From: Muscardinus avellanarius
Lineage: Eukaryota; Chordata; Mammalia; Rodentia; Gliridae
NCBI GenBank assembly: GCA_963383645.1
Contig: OY726576.1
Coordinates: 12,132,928-12,196,927, forward strand
Length of the DNA stretch: 64,000 nucleotides
Reading direction: 5' to 3'
Of this stretch, positions 3,094 through 58,042 are shown piece after piece. Numbering within the stretch: the stretch's first letter is position 1; the number at the start of each line of letters is the position of its first letter. Position numbers and translations under genes: made by a program. The notes under the pieces are model-generated. The model searched no databases. It worked only from the letters and a program-made list of their open reading frames with translations, and was not told where the DNA came from.

Positions 3094-3462
3094 GCGGCTG
3101 GTGATGGAGCGTGCGTGGCTGATGATGGAGTGCGCGGCTGATGACGGAGCATGCGCGGCTGGTGATGGAGCGTGCGCGGCTGATGACGGAGCGTGCACGG
3201 CTGGTGACGGAGCGTGCACGGCTGATGACGAAGCGTCCGCGGCTGATGACGGAGCGTGCGCGGCTGGTGATGGAGCGTGCGCGGCTGATGACGGAGCATG
3301 CGCGGCTGGTGACGAAGCGTGCGCGGCTGATGACGGAGCATGCGCGGCTGGTGACGGAGCGTGCACGGCTGATGACGGAGCGTGCACGGCTGGTGACGGA
3401 GCGTGCACGGCTGATGACGAAGCGTCCGCGGCTGATGACGGAGCATGCGCGGCTGGTTTCCA
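3094..3462. repeat. 21-bp GC-rich minisatellite
   Basis: About 17-18 copies of a 21-bp unit, ggctgatgacggagcgtgcgc, alternate with the variant ggctggtgatggagcgtgcgc, giving a 42-bp higher-order period. Because 21 is a multiple of 3, long ORFs stay open in several frames on both strands. These are best read as a by-product of the repeat. It sits directly in the single-copy CpG-rich block. Confidence 0.93.
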
Positions 3463-3833: not shown

Positions 3834-3850
3834 TAAAAATAATACCCCTC
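3834..3850. repeat. Target-site duplication, left copy
   Basis: taaaaataatacccctc is repeated exactly at 7232-7248. It brackets the composite retroelement, and its A-rich 5' side fits an L1 endonuclease target. Confidence 0.9.
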
Positions 3851-6550
3851 AGGTTAGGCCGGTGCTGGGGCCAGCGAGGCCGGCATCGGAGCCTGCCGTG
3901 AGGCAAGGCCGGTACTGGGGCCTCCGAGGCCAGGATAAGAGCCTGCCAAGGGGCTAGGCCGGTGCTGGGGCCAGCGAGGCCGGCATCGGAGCCTGCCTTG
4001 AGGCATGACCAGTGCTGGGGCCTCCGAGGCCGGGATCGGAGCCTGCCGAGGGGTTAGGCCGCTGCTGGGGCCAGCGAGGCCGGCATCGGAGCCTGCCGTG
4101 AGGCAAGGCCGGTACTGGGGCCTCCGAGGCCAGGATAAGAGCCTGCCGAGGGGTTAGGCCAGTGCTGGGGCCAGTGAGGCCGGCATCGGAGCCTGCCTTG
4201 AGGCAAGGTCGGTACTGGGGCCTCTAGGCCAGGATAAGAGCCTGCCGAGGGGTTAGGCCGGTGCTGGGGCCAGCGAGGCCGGCATCGGAGCCTGCCGTGA
4301 GGCAAGGCCGGTACTGGGGCCTCCGAGGCCAGGATAAGAGCTTGCCGAGGGGTTAGGCCGGTGCTGGGGCCAACGAGGCCGGCAGCGGAGCCTGCTGTGA
4401 GGCATGACCAGTGCTGGGGCCTCCGAGGCCGGGATCGGAGCATGCCGAGGGGTTAGGCCGGTGCTGGGGCCAGCGAGGCCGGCAGCGGAGCCTGCCGTGA
4501 GGCAAGGCCAGTACTGGGGCCTCCGAGGCCAGGATAAGAGCCTGCCGAGGGGTTAGGCCGGTGCTGGGGCCAGCGAGGCCGGCATCGGAGCCTGCCTTGA
4601 GGCATGACCAGTGCTGGGGCCTCCGAGGCCGGGATCGGAGCCTGCCTTGAGGCAAGGCCGGTACTGGGGCCTCTGAGGCCGGGATCGGAGCCTGCCGAGG
4701 GGTTAGGCCGCTGCTGGGGCCAGTGAGGCCGGCATCGGAGCCTGCAGTGAGGCAAGGCCGGTACTGGGGCCTCTGAGGCCAGGATAAGAGCCTGCTGAGG
4801 GGTTAGGCCGGTGCTGGGGCCAGTGAGGCTGGCATCGGAGCCTGCCTTGAGGCAAGGCCGGTACTGGGGCCTCGAGGCCAGGTTAAGAGCCTGCCGAGGG
4901 GTTAGGCCGGTGCTGGGGCCAGCGAGGCCGGCATCGGAGCCTACCGTGAGGCAAGGCCGGTACTGGGGCCTCCGAGGCCAGGATAAGAGCCTGCCAAGGG
5001 GCTAGGCCGGTGCTGGGGCCAGCGAGGCCGGCATCGGAGCCTGCCTTGAGACATGACCAGTGCTGGGGCCTCCGAGGCCGGGATCGGAGCCTGCCGAGGG
5101 GTTAGGCCGCTGCTGGGGCCAGCGAGGCCGGCATCGGAGCCTGCCGTGAGGCAAGGCCGGTACTGGGGCCTCCGAGGCCAGGATAAGAGCCTGCCGAGGG
5201 GTTAGGCCAGTGCTGGGGCCAGTGAGGCCGGCATCGGAGCCTGCCTTGAGGCAAGGTCGGTACTGGGGCCTCTAGGCCAGGATAAGAGCCTGCCGAGGGG
5301 TTAGGCCTGTGCTGGGGCCAGCGAGGCCGGCATCGGAGCCTGCCGTGAGGCAAGGCCGGTACTGGGGCCTCCGAGGCCAGGATAAGAGCTTGCCGAGGGG
5401 TTAGGCCGGTGCTGGGGCCAACGAGGCCGGCAGCGGAGCCTGCTGTGAGGCATGACCAGTGCTGGGGCCTCCGAGGCCGGGATCGGAGCATGCCGAGGGG
5501 TTAGGCCGGTGCTGGGGCCAGCGAGGCCGGCAGCGGAGCCTGCCGTGAGGCAAGGCCAGTACTGGGGCCTCCGAGGCCAGGATAAGAGCCTGCCAAGGGG
5601 TTAGGCCAGTGCTGGGGCCAGCGAGGCCGGCATCGGAGCCTGCCTTGAGGCATGACCAGTGCTGGGGCCTCCGAGGCCGGGATCGGAGCCTGCAGAGGGG
5701 TTAGGCCGCTGCTGGGGCCAGCGAGGCCGGCATCGGAGCCTGCTGTGAGGCAAGGCCGGTACTGGGGCCTCCGAGGCCAGGACAAGAGCCTGCCGAGGGG
5801 TTAGGCCGGTGCTGGGGCCAGCGAGGCCGGCATCGGAGCCTGCCTTGAGGCAAGGCCGGTACTGGGGCCTCTGAGGCCGGGATCGGAGCCTGCCGAGGGG
5901 TTAGGCCGCTACTGGGGCCAGTGAGGCCGGCATCGGAGCCTGCCGTGAGGCAAGGCCGGTACTGGGGCCTCTGAGGCCAGGATAAGAGCCTGCTGAGGGG
6001 TTAGGCCGGTGCTGGGGCCAGCGAGGCCGGCATCGGAGCCTGCCTTGAGGCAAGGCCGGTACTGGGGCCTCGAGGCCAGGATAAGAGCCTGCCGAGGGGT
6101 TAGGCCGGTGCTGGGGCCAGCGAGGCCGGCATCGGAGCCTACCGTGAGGCAAGACCGGTACTGGGGCCTCCGAGGCCAGGATAAGAGCTTGCCGAGAGGT
6201 TAGGTCGGTGCTGGGGCCAACGAGGCCGGCAGCGGAGCCTGCCGTGAGGCATGACCAGTGCTGGGGCCTCCGAGGCCGGGATCGGAGCATGCCGAGGGGT
6301 TAGGCCGGTGCTGGGGCCAGCGAGGCCAGCATCGGAGCCTGCCGTGAGGCAAGGCCGGTACTGGGGCCTTCGAGGCCAGGATAAGAGCCTGCCGAGGGGT
6401 TAGGCCGGTGCTGGGGCCAGCGAGGCCGGCATCGGAGCCTGCCATGAGGCAAGGCCGGTACTGGGGCCTCTGAGGCCAGGATAAGAGCCTGTCAAGGGGT
6501 TAGGCCGGTGCTGGGGCCAGTGAGGCCGGCATCGGAGCCTGCCGTGAGGC
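3851..6550 (+). repeat. VNTR of the composite element, 50-bp monomers in 100-bp dimers
   Basis: About 27 dimers. Monomer A begins ggttaggccggtgctggggc and monomer B begins ggcaaggccggtactggggc. They alternate strictly over most of the array, with occasional indels and swaps. Long ORFs on both strands follow from the array and have no domain. Blocks are duplicated at a spacing of 1,048 bp; for example the variant ccaaggggctagg occurs near 3947 and again near 4995. Confidence 0.95.
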
Positions 6551-7231
6551 ATTACCAGTGTTGGGGCATCCGAGGCCGGGATTGGAATCCTGCCAAGGGG
6601 TTAGACCGGTGCAGGGGCCAATGGCCAGCATCGGAGCCTGGCGTGAGGCAAGTTCACTCCTTCGGCCTCCAAGGTCGGGACCAAAGCCAGCTTAGGGGTT
6701 TGACCGGTTCAGGGGCCAGCGAGACCAGAACTGGGTCCTCCCATGAGGCAAGGCCGCTGCGTGAGCCAGCGAGGTCTGGATCAATCCACTGAGTAGCCAG
6801 GCCACTACTGGGACCATCAAGAGTGGGATTGGTACTTGCAACGCAGCATGCACAGAGAAATATCGCAGAAAATATAAATCAGACGCTTCTCTTAATCAGC
6901 AATAACTAGGAGGAAAAGGGCAACAGGAAGAGGTTGAGCTATAGAAAGGGCCCTATAGTGAAGCAACTAATGTGACCAATCAGAGGGTATGTAATACTGG
7001 AGGACGGAGCCTCTTTAAAATGCAGGAGGTACATAAACAAATGTATCAAAGTAAATCACCAAAGAAGTGTGGGATGGAGGGAGGGGGAGGGAATGGGACA
7101 GGGGCTGGAGGAGGGCTAATTGGATGATGTGTGCTTGTATATCCTCTCAAGTCTTGTACTCCAATGTGATTGATATATGACTACAATGCACCAATTTAAA
7201 AAATAAATTAATTAAAAAAAAAATAAAAAAA
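3851..7231 (+). mobile_element. SVA-like composite retroelement (VNTR + unique 3' domain + poly-A)
   Basis: A complete insertion bounded by an exact 17-bp TSD and ending in an A-rich tail (about 7195-7231), the hallmarks of L1-mediated target-primed reverse transcription. From the 5' end it has a GC-rich VNTR with 50-bp alternating monomers (3851-6550), a degenerating transition (6550-6790), and a unique 3' domain of about 400 bp (6790-7195). That domain contains a CCAAT motif (gaccaatcag, near 6974), a TATA-like ctctttaaaatg and a G-rich purine tract (7075-7120). No ORF encodes a recognisable protein, so it must be mobilised in trans. The architecture resembles primate SVA/LAVA, but I recognise none of the named SVA modules, so common ancestry is not implied. 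A second copy (56893-57813) is almost identical over the 3' domain. Confidence 0.88.
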
Positions 7232-7248
7232 TAAAAATAATACCCCTC
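7232..7248. repeat. Target-site duplication, right copy
   Basis: Exact repeat of 3834-3850. Confidence 0.9.
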
Positions 7249-7346: not shown

Positions 7347-7452
7347 AGCCGGGTGTGGTGGCGCACGCTTGTAATCCCCACACTTGGGAGGCGGAGACAG
7401 GAGGATCGTGCTGGTTTGGAGCCAGCGCGCTGGCTTAAGAGGCCCTGTTTCC
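7347..7452 (+). mobile_element. B1-dID SINE, 5' half (split by L1)
   Basis: The B1 half (gccgggtgtggtggcgcacg ... ggcttaagaggccctgtttcc) stops abruptly at the L1 fragment. Its dID half resumes at about 8028. Confidence 0.85.
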
Positions 7453-8027
7453 ACCAGCTATACCACTCCTGGGTATCTTTCCAAAGGGGTTGAATTCAGA
7501 GAACTACAGCAACTTACACATACCTATGTTCATTGCAGCACAATTCGTAATAGCCAAAATATGGAACCAACCCAGATCTCCATCAACAGATGAATGGATA
7601 GCAAAACTTTGGGAAATACACACAATGGAATTCTATTCAGCCATAAAGAAGAACAAAATTATATCATTTGCAAGAAGATGGAAAGTCCTGGAGAGCATTA
7701 AGTGAGATCAGCCAAGCACAGAAGGAGAGGGGACATATGTTTCCTCTAATATGCCCAAACTAGGAAACACAGAGGATACCAGTGGGACTCCTGATAATGG
7801 AGGGGAAATCTCAGCAACGTTTGAATGGAAAGATAGGAGAGGAGGAAGGCTGATCTTGATTAATGAGGGTCAACATCTGAACATGTGTAAAATTATGAAT
7901 AAAACATGGTTAACCTGGACAACCATTGGTGGGAGGGGGGAAGGGAAAACGGGGGCGGGGGGGGAGAGGCGCCAAATATAGTTTAAATGTATACCATTTA
8001 GGTTTAATAAAAATTTTGTTTAAAAAA
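7453..8027 (+). mobile_element. L1 LINE, 5'-truncated 3' end
   Basis: The sequence matches the conserved mammalian L1 region at the end of ORF2 and the 3'UTR (gcagcacaattcgtaatagc, aaccaacccagatctccatc, attctattcagccataaaga). A G-rich tract (7929-7970) and an A-rich end follow. It encodes only the last few dozen ORF2 residues and is interrupted. It is nested inside a B1-dID SINE. Confidence 0.9.
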
Positions 8028-8145
8028 ATGGGTCTGGCAGTGTAGCCCGTGAGAGTGTATCCCGGAGGTAGAAGGGCTTCCAGGAACCCCAGTACCACCA
8101 AAAAATAATAATAAAAATTTAAAAATTTAAAAAAATTTTTAAAAA
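8028..8145 (+). mobile_element. B1-dID SINE, 3' half (split by L1)
   Basis: gggtctggcagtgtagcccg ... ccccagtaccaccaaaaaa with an A-rich tail. It completes the copy that starts at 7347, and has the 'gggcttccaggaacccc' subfamily end. Confidence 0.85.
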
Positions 8146-43833: not shown

Positions 43834-43902
43834 TCGCCAGCTTTGGCCCGCCATCTTGGACACGTGAAATCACTGGGGGGCCGCCATCTTGGCCCCACCA
43901 TC

Positions 43903-44270
43903 TTTAACCCCTCCCACCTCATGGCCTCACTGGAGGCCTCACCATCCTTAACCCCTCCCACCTCATGGCCTCACTGGAGGCCTCTCCATCCTTAACCCCT
44001 CCCACCTCATGGCCTCACTGGAGGCCTCGCCATCCTTAACCCCTCCCACCTCATGGCCTCACTGGAGGCCTCTCCATCCTTAACCCCTCCCACCTCATGG
44101 CCTCACTGGAGGCCTCGCCATCCTTAACCCCTCCCACCTCATGGCCTCACTGGAGGCCTCTCCATCCTTAACCCCTCCCACCTCATGGCCTCACTGGAGG
44201 CCTCGCCATCTTTAACCCCTCCCACCTCATGGCCTCACTGGAGGCCTCACAATCTTTAATCCCTCCCACT
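43903..44270 (+). repeat. 44-bp tandem repeat inside the ERV
   Basis: About eight units of cttaacccctcccacctcat + ggcctcactggaggcctc + nccatc. The variable base alternates (ctctcc / ctcgcc), giving an 88-bp higher-order period. It spans no ORF of known type. Confidence 0.93.
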
Positions 44271-51519: not shown

Positions 51520-51780
51520 AGGCTGCTGTTGCTGTTGCTGTTACTAGGGATTGAACTCAGGAGCATTCTACCTCCCAGCTACACCTCCAGCCCTATTTTA
51601 TGTTTTGTTTTCAAGCAGTCTCGCTAGGTGGCTAAGAGTCTCATTACTTGCCAAGGCTGCCCTCAAATCTGCGATCCTCCCGTCTCAGCCTTCCAAGCAC
51701 TTGGATTACAAACTCGATCCTCCCGTCTCAGCCTTCCAAGCACTTGGATTACAAACTCGTGCCACCATGCCTGACTTTCC
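51520..51780 (-). mobile_element. B1-dID SINE with internal 43-bp tandem duplication
   Basis: The usual minus-strand dimer, but 51673-51715 and 51716-51758 are exact copies (gatcctcccgtctcagcctt...). Confidence 0.87.
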
Positions 51781-51787
51781 TCTTTAC

Positions 51788-51960
51788 TTATGACATATCA
51801 AAGTCAATCACTAAGCCAAACATGAGAAAGAGGGAGAGGGAAGGGATGGGCCAGGGATTGGGGAAGGGCTAAATGAGTGACTTCTGCATCTACCTTCTAC
51901 TATCTTGTAGTCCATTAAGACGCACGACTACAATACACCAATTTAAAAAAAAAAAAGGAA
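51788..51960 (+). mobile_element. Old relative of the composite element's 3' domain
   Basis: catatcaaagtcaatcacta ... gggagagggaagggatgggc ... gactacaatacaccaattta plus poly-A aligns with 7045-7200 but with many differences. It is a 5'-truncated insertion of about 160 bp. Confidence 0.75.
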
Positions 51961-56615: not shown

Positions 56616-56892
56616 TTTTTGCGGGTCTGGAGATGGAATTCAGGGACATTCGACCTCCAAGCTATACCCCCTGCCCTATTTTTTATTCTTTATTTTGAAA
56701 CCAGGTCTCACTGAGTTGCGGAGGGCCTCACTAAGTAGCTGAGGCTGTCCGCGAACTGCGATCCTCCAGTCTCAGCCTCCCAAATGCTGGGATTACAAGC
56801 ATGCGCCACCACGCCCAGCTTTTAATTCTTATTTGGAAACAGGGTCTTACTAGATTACTGAGAGCCTCACTAAATTGCTGAGGCTGGCTTTG
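55933..56892. mobile_element. Dense SINE cluster
   Basis: Plus copies at 55933-56120 and a stub at 56140-56177. A minus copy at 56180-56393 is bracketed by cccacaatcctacta. Then (TTG)n 56408-56440, minus dID pieces 56441-56510 and 56505-56575, minus complete copy 56576-56820 with (TTTA)n, and a minus half copy 56821-56892 that continues at 57829 beyond the composite. Confidence 0.85.
56878..56892. repeat. Target-site duplication of composite copy 2, left
   Basis: ctgaggctggctttg, repeated exactly at 57814-57828. Confidence 0.88.
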
Positions 56893-57813
56893 TTTTTTTT
56901 TTTTCTAATTTAATGTATATTAAAATTTTATTAGATTATATAGTTTACTTTGCCATCATTGAACACCCATATTCAAATTTTATTCAAAACTGATTTTATT
57001 TTATTTTTTTCAGTGTATATGTATTTTATTTTATTTTATTTATTTTTTTATTTTATTTTTTAAATTAATTTATTTTTTAAATTGGTGCATTGTAGTCATA
57101 TATCAATCACATTGGAGTACAAGACTTGAGAGGATATACAAGCACACATCATCCAATTAGCCCTCCTCCAGCCCCCATCCCATTCCCTCCCCCTCCCTCC
57201 ATCCCACACTTCTTTGGTGATTTACTTTGATACATTTGTTTATGTACCTCCTGCGTTTTAAAGAGGCTCCATCCTCCAGTATTACATACCCTCTGATTGG
57301 TCACATTAGTTGTTTCACTATAGGGCCCTTTCTATAGCTCAACCTCTTCCTGTTGCCCTTTTCCTCCTAGTTATTGCTGATTAAGAGAAGCGTCTGATTT
57401 ATATTTTCTGCGATATTTCTCTGTGCATGCTGCGTTGCAAGTACCAATCCCACTCTTGATGGTCCCAGTAGTGGCCTGGCTACTCAGTGGACTGATCCAG
57501 ACCTCGCTGGCTCAAGCAGCGGCCTTGCCTCATGGGAGGCCCCAGTTCTGGTCTCGCTGGCCCCTGAACCGGTCTAACCCCTAAGCTGGCTTTGGTCCCG
57601 GCCTTGGAGGCCGCAGGAGTGAACTTGCCTCACGCCAGGCTCCGATGCTGGCCATTGGCCCCTGCACCGGTCTAACCCCTTGGCAGGATTCCAATCCCGG
57701 CCTCGGAGGCCAGAAACCGGCCTAGCCTCATGGCGGGCTCCAATGCCGGCCTCGTTGGCCCCAGCACCAGCCTAACCCCTCGGCAGGCTCCAATCCCGGC
57801 CTCGGAGGCCCCA
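56893..57813 (-). mobile_element. SVA-like composite retroelement, copy 2, with 3' extension
   Basis: Antisense and inserted in a SINE with an exact 15-bp TSD. In element orientation: about 330 bp of VNTR-type DNA (57813 down to about 57481), the unique 3' domain (about 57480-57079) at roughly 99% identity to copy 1 by eye, the element's own A-rich tail (about 57078-57000), about 95 bp of extra DNA with two AATAAA-type signals (56999-56906), and a terminal poly-A (56905-56893). The second tail after unrelated DNA is what a 3' transduction would look like. Confidence 0.85.
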
Positions 57814-58042
57814 CTGAGGCTGGCTTTGAACCTGTAAACCTCCTGTCTCCGTCTCCCAAGTATGGGATAACAAGCATGTACCACCATGCCTGGCTTTAAT
57901 TTTTATTTTTTATTTGGAAACAGTCTCACTAAGTTGACGCAAGGCTTACTGAGTTGTTGATGCTGGTTTCAAACCTGTGATCCTCCTTTCTCAGCCTCCC
58001 AAGTACTGAGATTACAGGCATGCACCACCATGCCCAGCTCCT
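57814..58042 (-). mobile_element. B1-dID SINE remainder and a shortened copy
   Basis: 57814-57895 completes the SINE broken by composite copy 2 (its first 15 bp are the TSD). 57896-58042 is a second minus-strand half copy. Confidence 0.82.

Follow-up and report, generated by a model that had tools for sequence, protein, structure and literature searches.

A probable young retrotransposon family with a long internal tandem-repeat array and a LINE-1-like 3' end in the dormouse Muscardinus avellanarius

Long interspersed element 1 (LINE-1) has given rise to non-autonomous, internally deleted descendants such as HAL1 and the spliced LINE-1 derivatives, and SVA elements, known for 3' transduction, have a 3' SINE-R of HERV-K origin. 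SVA, LAVA, PVA and FVA are composites which, according to PMC4432496, have in common a 5' CT-hexamer/Alu-like region and a central variable number of tandem repeats (VNTR); this source and PMC7353768 state that VNTR composites are specific to hominoid primates. Tandem monomers are also found in the LINE-1 5' untranslated region (UTR), where, according to PMC6454616, only those of the mouse lie near the 5' end, the mouse having many more of them per element. The present analysis concerns an insertion at positions 3834-7248 of a 64,000-nucleotide stretch of the Muscardinus avellanarius genome (contig OY726576.1, positions 12,132,928 to 12,196,927 of the forward strand; hereafter the window), in which a first-pass annotation of the sequence had recognised an SVA/LAVA-like composite retrotransposon, together with the related copies found in the assembly.

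We read this insertion (copy 1), with a probability of about 0.9, as a 5'-truncated member of a young, non-autonomous retrotransposon family mobilised by LINE-1. A search of the M. avellanarius assembly (2.5 Gb) with a 406-bp query for the 3' domain of the element (D) returned 279 first-look candidates, and all 40 of those scored were matches, distributed on 16 contigs with 88-100% identity, 25 of them reaching at least 98% over all 406 bases. Twenty copies (ranks 2-21 of the 40, ~9.8 kb each) were fetched and analysed together with the two copies present in the window. The VNTR was found directly 5' of D in all 22 copies and a target-site duplication (TSD) in 19, as anticipated by the first-pass annotation, which had proposed that a genuine family would show a VNTR 5' of the same 3' domain and private TSDs.

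Copy 1 lies on the forward strand between two exact copies of a 17-bp TSD, TAAAAATAATACCCCTC (3834-3850 and 7232-7248), which does not occur elsewhere on this strand of the window; an equally long repeat was obtained for none of 4000 random position pairs at the same spacing. The TSDs enclose a GC-rich VNTR (3851-6840), the front part of D (6841-7043) with CCAAT at 6976 and TTTAAAA at 7014, the tail part of D with a G-rich tract (7044-7199) and an A-rich tail (7200-7231). Dimeric 50+50-bp units compose the VNTR, whose 50/100-bp periodicity extends over 3856-6756 with degenerate units on to ~6840. Its interior has been partly amplified as a ~1.05-kb block, which recurs at an offset of 1048 with 96-100% identity over the first ~800 bp, and its CpG observed/expected ratio is 0.57. 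D contains stops in all six frames, no family search having been made on this domain; on the antisense strand, the VNTR displays open stretches of 132-182 aa, and the one frame submitted to a protein search had no homologue. The TSD, the repeat array, the motifs of the 3' domain and the apparent lack of coding capacity had all been correctly described in the first-pass annotation. Its description of a complete 3.4-kb insertion stands only for the interval between the TSDs: the element itself is 5'-truncated within the VNTR, because further 5' sequence is present in 12 of the 22 copies, and copy 1 was therefore not retained as a complete element. Two other interpretations of D were also rejected. 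A structured RNA was not supported, since D folded no better than its shuffled versions (z +1.2) and had no Rfam match. An origin from a long terminal repeat, with the CCAAT and TATA-like boxes as parts of U3, was set aside since the G-rich tract follows rather than precedes the TATA-like box and the end of D matches a LINE-1 end, no long terminal repeat sequence being compared.

The longest form of the element consists, from 5' to 3', of GC-rich 125-bp monomers, a ~475-bp unique block (U), the 50/100-bp VNTR, D and poly-A. U was present upstream of the VNTR in 12 of the 22 copies, 11 of which start with 187-757 bp of monomers and span 2.5-8.0 kb up to the end of D; in one of them (L031, on the minus strand of G000:C23:80561942-80571800), the monomer array has a GC content of 0.71 and a CpG observed/expected ratio of 0.71. 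The VNTR, 261 bp long at its shortest, is conserved in its first and last units and variable in its interior, and the U/VNTR junction of L045 is different. The longest array seen, that of L033, exceeds 7.8 kb and runs past the edge of its locus. The longest open piece of U measures 84-99 aa in 11 copies; a Pfam search with five pieces from one copy of U and an Rfam search with U of L031 and L044 both came back empty, and the four matches of one piece to PDB sequences, at E 0.5-1, were taken as chance. The longest form would thus be without evident coding capacity. Exact-pattern scans of viral and prokaryote collections gave 0 matches, which is uninformative for a mammal.

The copies bear the marks of LINE-1-type insertion. 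A strict automatic test (TSD of at least 10 bp) identified TSDs of 10-20 bp in 16 of the 22 copies, in 16 different sequences; the three others were recognised by eye in L050 and, once 1.65 kb of 3' flank was searched, in L037 (15 bp) and L039 (12 bp). Many TSDs, not all, start in A-runs (as judged by reading, with no statistic), which is the expectation for the LINE-1 endonuclease. D is followed by an A-rich stretch in every copy, interrupted in L034, and U is missing from 10 copies, which start within the VNTR, L033 starting beyond its locus. The insertions of L037 and L039 run 390-520 bp past D and have in common a segment (92.9% identity over 368 bp) that terminates in older sequence related to the D tail, a shared 3' transduction; at least three copies carry 3' transductions, two of them with this common segment. 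In L046, ~180 bp composed of an ID-like short interspersed element (SINE) stretch and a CA repeat separate D from a 19-bp TSD and probably represent a further 3' transduction, the CA repeat weakening this TSD. Over 231 pairs of copies, D diverges by a median of 1.7%, compared with 15-32% for SINEs in the listed window alignments, which indicates a young family. Together with the private TSDs and the dispersal on 16 contigs, this bears out the recently mobile, LINE-1-type family proposed by the first-pass annotation.

A nearly identical second copy, also noticed at the outset, occupies positions 57813-56893 on the minus strand of the window, with 98.0% identity to copy 1 (11 substitutions in 549 aligned bases). 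This copy 2 is inserted into a SINE and has its own 15-bp TSD, CAAAGCCAGCCTCAG (57814-57828 at its 5' side and 56878-56892 at its 3' side), a length reached by one of 4000 random pairs. When its flanks are joined with one TSD removed, 107 of 399 window alignments cross the junction, the best listed junction-crossing alignment reaching 84.5% over 336 bp, and the empty site restores the SINE. The truncated VNTR of copy 2 (57436-57813) is in register with 6462-6840 of copy 1 at 92.9% identity and is followed by the 3' domain (57077-57435). The remaining interval (56893-57076) comprises an A-rich tail and, between this tail and the second TSD, a ~100-bp segment (56900-57000) in which AATAAA precedes a terminal A12 by 22 nt and which we interpret as a 3' transduction. 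The window also contains, on the plus strand (51796-51950), an older, 5'-truncated relative of the tail part of D, limited to its last ~155 bp, with 70% identity and no TSD established. The start of the oldest relative ~30 bp after the TTTAAAA box was considered a coincidence. Shortly upstream of the 51796-51950 relative, SINE-like sequence harbours a perfect 43-bp tandem duplication (51672-51759).

The 3' end of the element is of LINE-1 type. An iterated profile links the last ~155 bp of D to the terminus of a LINE-1 copy at L041, with E 2.2e-20, and only weakly to an older LINE-1 end of the window (29586-29492, E 0.0015), and a shuffled control gave no match at E<=1. Further matches, of untraced parentage, lie in L050, L039, L043 and L031. 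The L041 copy has a 56-aa ORF2 piece upstream on the same strand (matching human ORF2p structures in PDB, E 2e-16) and shares 75% identity over 512 bp with a LINE-1 3' region at 7441-8035 of the window. The region at 7439-7978 is presumably LINE-1 3' sequence, judging from its motifs and from its similarity to the L041 copy; its two open pieces matched no Pfam family. Pairwise comparison of the D tail with both older LINE-1 3' ends in the window gave nothing by nhmmer and z-scores of 3.7 and 1.8 by local alignment; it was the iterated profile alone that connected one of them to D, at the weak E 0.0015 given above. The D tail is homologous to the L041 LINE-1 end, yet diverged from it and not of the same subfamily.

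Several observations weigh against the reading of these copies as a LINE-1-mobilised family or limit its reach. The start point inside the monomer array varies among copies, so the 5' end described for the element is provisional. The 40 D matches are a lower bound, as copy 2 of the window, although ~98% identical, is not among them, and the 20 fetched copies are the top-scoring ones, among which truncated and older copies are under-sampled. The iterated profile had taken in earlier matches, making its E-values optimistic. Among the TSDs, the 11-bp one of L050 is ambiguous owing to a rival 14-bp repeat 320 bp downstream, that of L039 is A-rich and that of L046 is partly CA repeat; none was found for L036 and L045, and the start of L033 lies beyond its locus.

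Searching the genome with U rather than D yielded more first-look candidates, 2009 compared with the 279 of D, and the 40 scored were all 99-100% identical. Only 2 of these 40 places adjoin one of the 40 listed D places; the two totals count candidates rather than copies, and the list of D places has gaps. The VNTR follows U at two further U places (L051 and L052). One of them, locus C10, presents U, the VNTR (L051) and the front of D with 100% identity over 100 bp (L053), followed ~1.05 kb past the front of D, on the same strand, by an open stretch (L054) resembling the ORF1 region of two other LINE-1 copies, in L031 and L049 (70-74% at the DNA level). L054 matched no LINE-1 model in Pfam. 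An ORF1 RNA-binding piece (L057), matching PF02994 (E 3e-5) and LINE-1 ORF1p in PDB (E 1.6e-4), lies 3.6 kb beyond it. The idea that the C10 copy lacks the D tail, drawn from its absence in the D list, was dropped, this list also missing copy 2 of the window. A GC-rich hairpin-like stretch at this locus (L056, G000:C10:46029250-46029349) shows 67-72% similarity to L049 and L031 sequence located outside the elements and is perhaps a part of an older LINE-1 5' region.

The arrangement at C10, one locus sampled by 100-bp probes, suggests an internally deleted LINE-1, of which the monomers, U, VNTR and front of D would represent the 5' UTR, in a young lineage. RNA splicing or a template jump would have joined this 5' UTR to the 3' end of the same LINE-1, and one deleted form would have been amplified as a discrete family, a scenario that is a special case of the general reading given above and to which we attribute close to an even chance. 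It accounts for the homology of the D tail with a LINE-1 3' terminus, for the surplus of U candidates mostly away from listed D places and for the position of the ORF1-like L054, and 5' tandem monomers correspond to the design of the LINE-1 promoter in mouse (PMC6454616). However, L057 is too far from L054 for one ORF1 and could belong to a neighbouring LINE-1, and the ORF1 assignment of L054 comes from DNA similarity to L031 and L049. Moreover, beside L045 an older relative continues over position 7044 for ~20 bp without interruption, so the junction may be elsewhere, and in the 22 loci, several older LINE-1 copies among them, U and the front of D were seen only within the elements. This last result favours a true composite in the manner of SVA and LAVA, in which monomers, U and VNTR foreign to LINE-1 would have acquired a LINE-1 3' end, convergently with LAVA. 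The central position of the VNTR, conserved at its ends and variable inside, the 3' transductions and the lack of any meaningful match of U in Pfam, Rfam or PDB, in the pieces searched, fit such an origin, whereas a single LINE-1 source would explain more simply the ORF1-like sequence downstream at C10 combined with a LINE-1 3' end. We regard the composite as a serious possibility at somewhat less than even odds, and judge the two origins about equally likely.

Spread by segmental duplication or as a satellite, which the location of two copies 50 kb apart in the window might evoke, is hardly credible. These two copies differ in TSD, truncation point and strand, and the SINE is restored at the empty site of copy 2. 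Furthermore, the matches occupy 16 contigs and the 16 strict TSDs are all distinct. Duplication is thus ruled out for TSD-bearing copies, and the element proved neither single-copy nor confined to one duplicated segment. Whichever its origin, there is an even chance that the family already figures in Dfam or Repbase as a squirrel repeat, perhaps under two separate entries, one for a LINE-1 5' end and one for a satellite, as some two thousand U candidates would hardly escape automatic repeat libraries. No rodent VNTR retrotransposon appeared among the papers listed, in searches that covered the literature and not Dfam or Repbase; one review among them, PMC4982230, contains the words SVA-like, rodent and VNTR. 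Within this literature the family was not found in print; it is possibly catalogued in repeat databases.

The SVA/LAVA-like design attributed to copy 1 by the first-pass annotation was upheld by features it had not described, namely the central position of the VNTR in the longest copies, its conserved ends with variable length and the 3' transductions, and failed for the hexamer/Alu-like domain in the copies tested. L031 and L044, whose complete 5' ends were read, start in 125-bp monomers, and no hexamer repeat occurs inside either window copy. An Rfam scan covering L031 and L044, two of the 11 monomer-bearing copies, and copy 1 gave no 7SL-type match (E <=0.5 or 1) inside the element, although flanking SINEs do give sub-threshold 7SL matches in the same scans. 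The family would therefore not be a member of SVA/LAVA, because its 5' region differs where tested, although its way of working seems alike. It resembles SVA in being non-coding, in its LINE-1-type insertion and poly-A, and in its central GC-rich VNTR, whose end arrays are conserved and whose interior varies (PMC4432496). It differs from SVA by its 125-bp monomer array and U at the 5' end, its LINE-1-like 3' end, its 50/100-bp VNTR units (30-50 bp in SVA) and its rodent rather than hominoid host, whose SINEs are probably of the B1 plus ID structure associated with squirrel-type rodents. The gibbon LAVA, compared by description only, also combines a central VNTR with LINE-1 sequence in its 3' part (PMC4432496), whereas the dormouse family has no hexamer/Alu-like region where tested and no Alu noted in its 3' part. 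Likewise by description, SVA2 of macaque and gibbon shares a VNTR and a 3' unique sequence (same paper), with units of 39-40 bp instead of 50/100 bp.

The mouse L1Md elements have variable-number tandem monomers at their very 5' end, followed by a single-copy, tether-like block (PMC6454616 and PMC9022269). This likeness is one of description, not of sequence: the dormouse monomers measure 125 bp rather than ~200 bp, a second, longer array lies downstream and the D-bearing copies are without open reading frames. If the LINE-1 origin is true, a 5' monomer array in this genome would depart from the statement on the mouse in PMC6454616 cited above. Compared with HAL1 and spliced LINE-1 derivatives, neither LINE-1 open reading frame is evident in the dormouse family, and the VNTR makes up most of its length.

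In the working we propose, transcription by RNA polymerase II would begin within the CpG-rich monomers at the 5' end, as it does in mouse LINE-1, and the element RNA would be polyadenylated at the element end or at a downstream signal. LINE-1 proteins would then reverse-transcribe this RNA in trans at new sites, probably often stopping early, inside the VNTR, and the VNTR may expand and contract by block duplication. The family itself would have arisen from an internally deleted LINE-1, its 5' UTR joined to the 3' end, or from a composite which acquired a LINE-1 3' end.

We tentatively propose, at rather less than even odds, that a rodent lineage independently evolved an SVA-type element parasitic on LINE-1, in which two tandem arrays are stacked, a promoter made of 125-bp monomers and, distinct from it, a 50/100-bp VNTR that can exceed 7.8 kb. 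A long internal VNTR would then be a repeatedly selected design for LINE-1 parasites and not an ape accident. This layout, in a young family dispersed through a rodent genome, would be an independent replicate of the hominoid VNTR composites, and the role of the VNTR in LINE-1 parasites (RNA stability, ORF1p binding, escape from silencing) would become testable outside apes. If the element is an internally deleted LINE-1, it would illustrate how the helper itself can give rise to such elements, and would point to a lineage of LINE-1 whose 5' UTR contains two tandem arrays.

Two minisatellites were also noted in the window: one of 21 bp in 17 copies (3094-3455), a short way upstream of copy 1 and with a unit unlike that of the VNTR, and one of 44 bp in 8.6 copies with 96% match (43891-44269).

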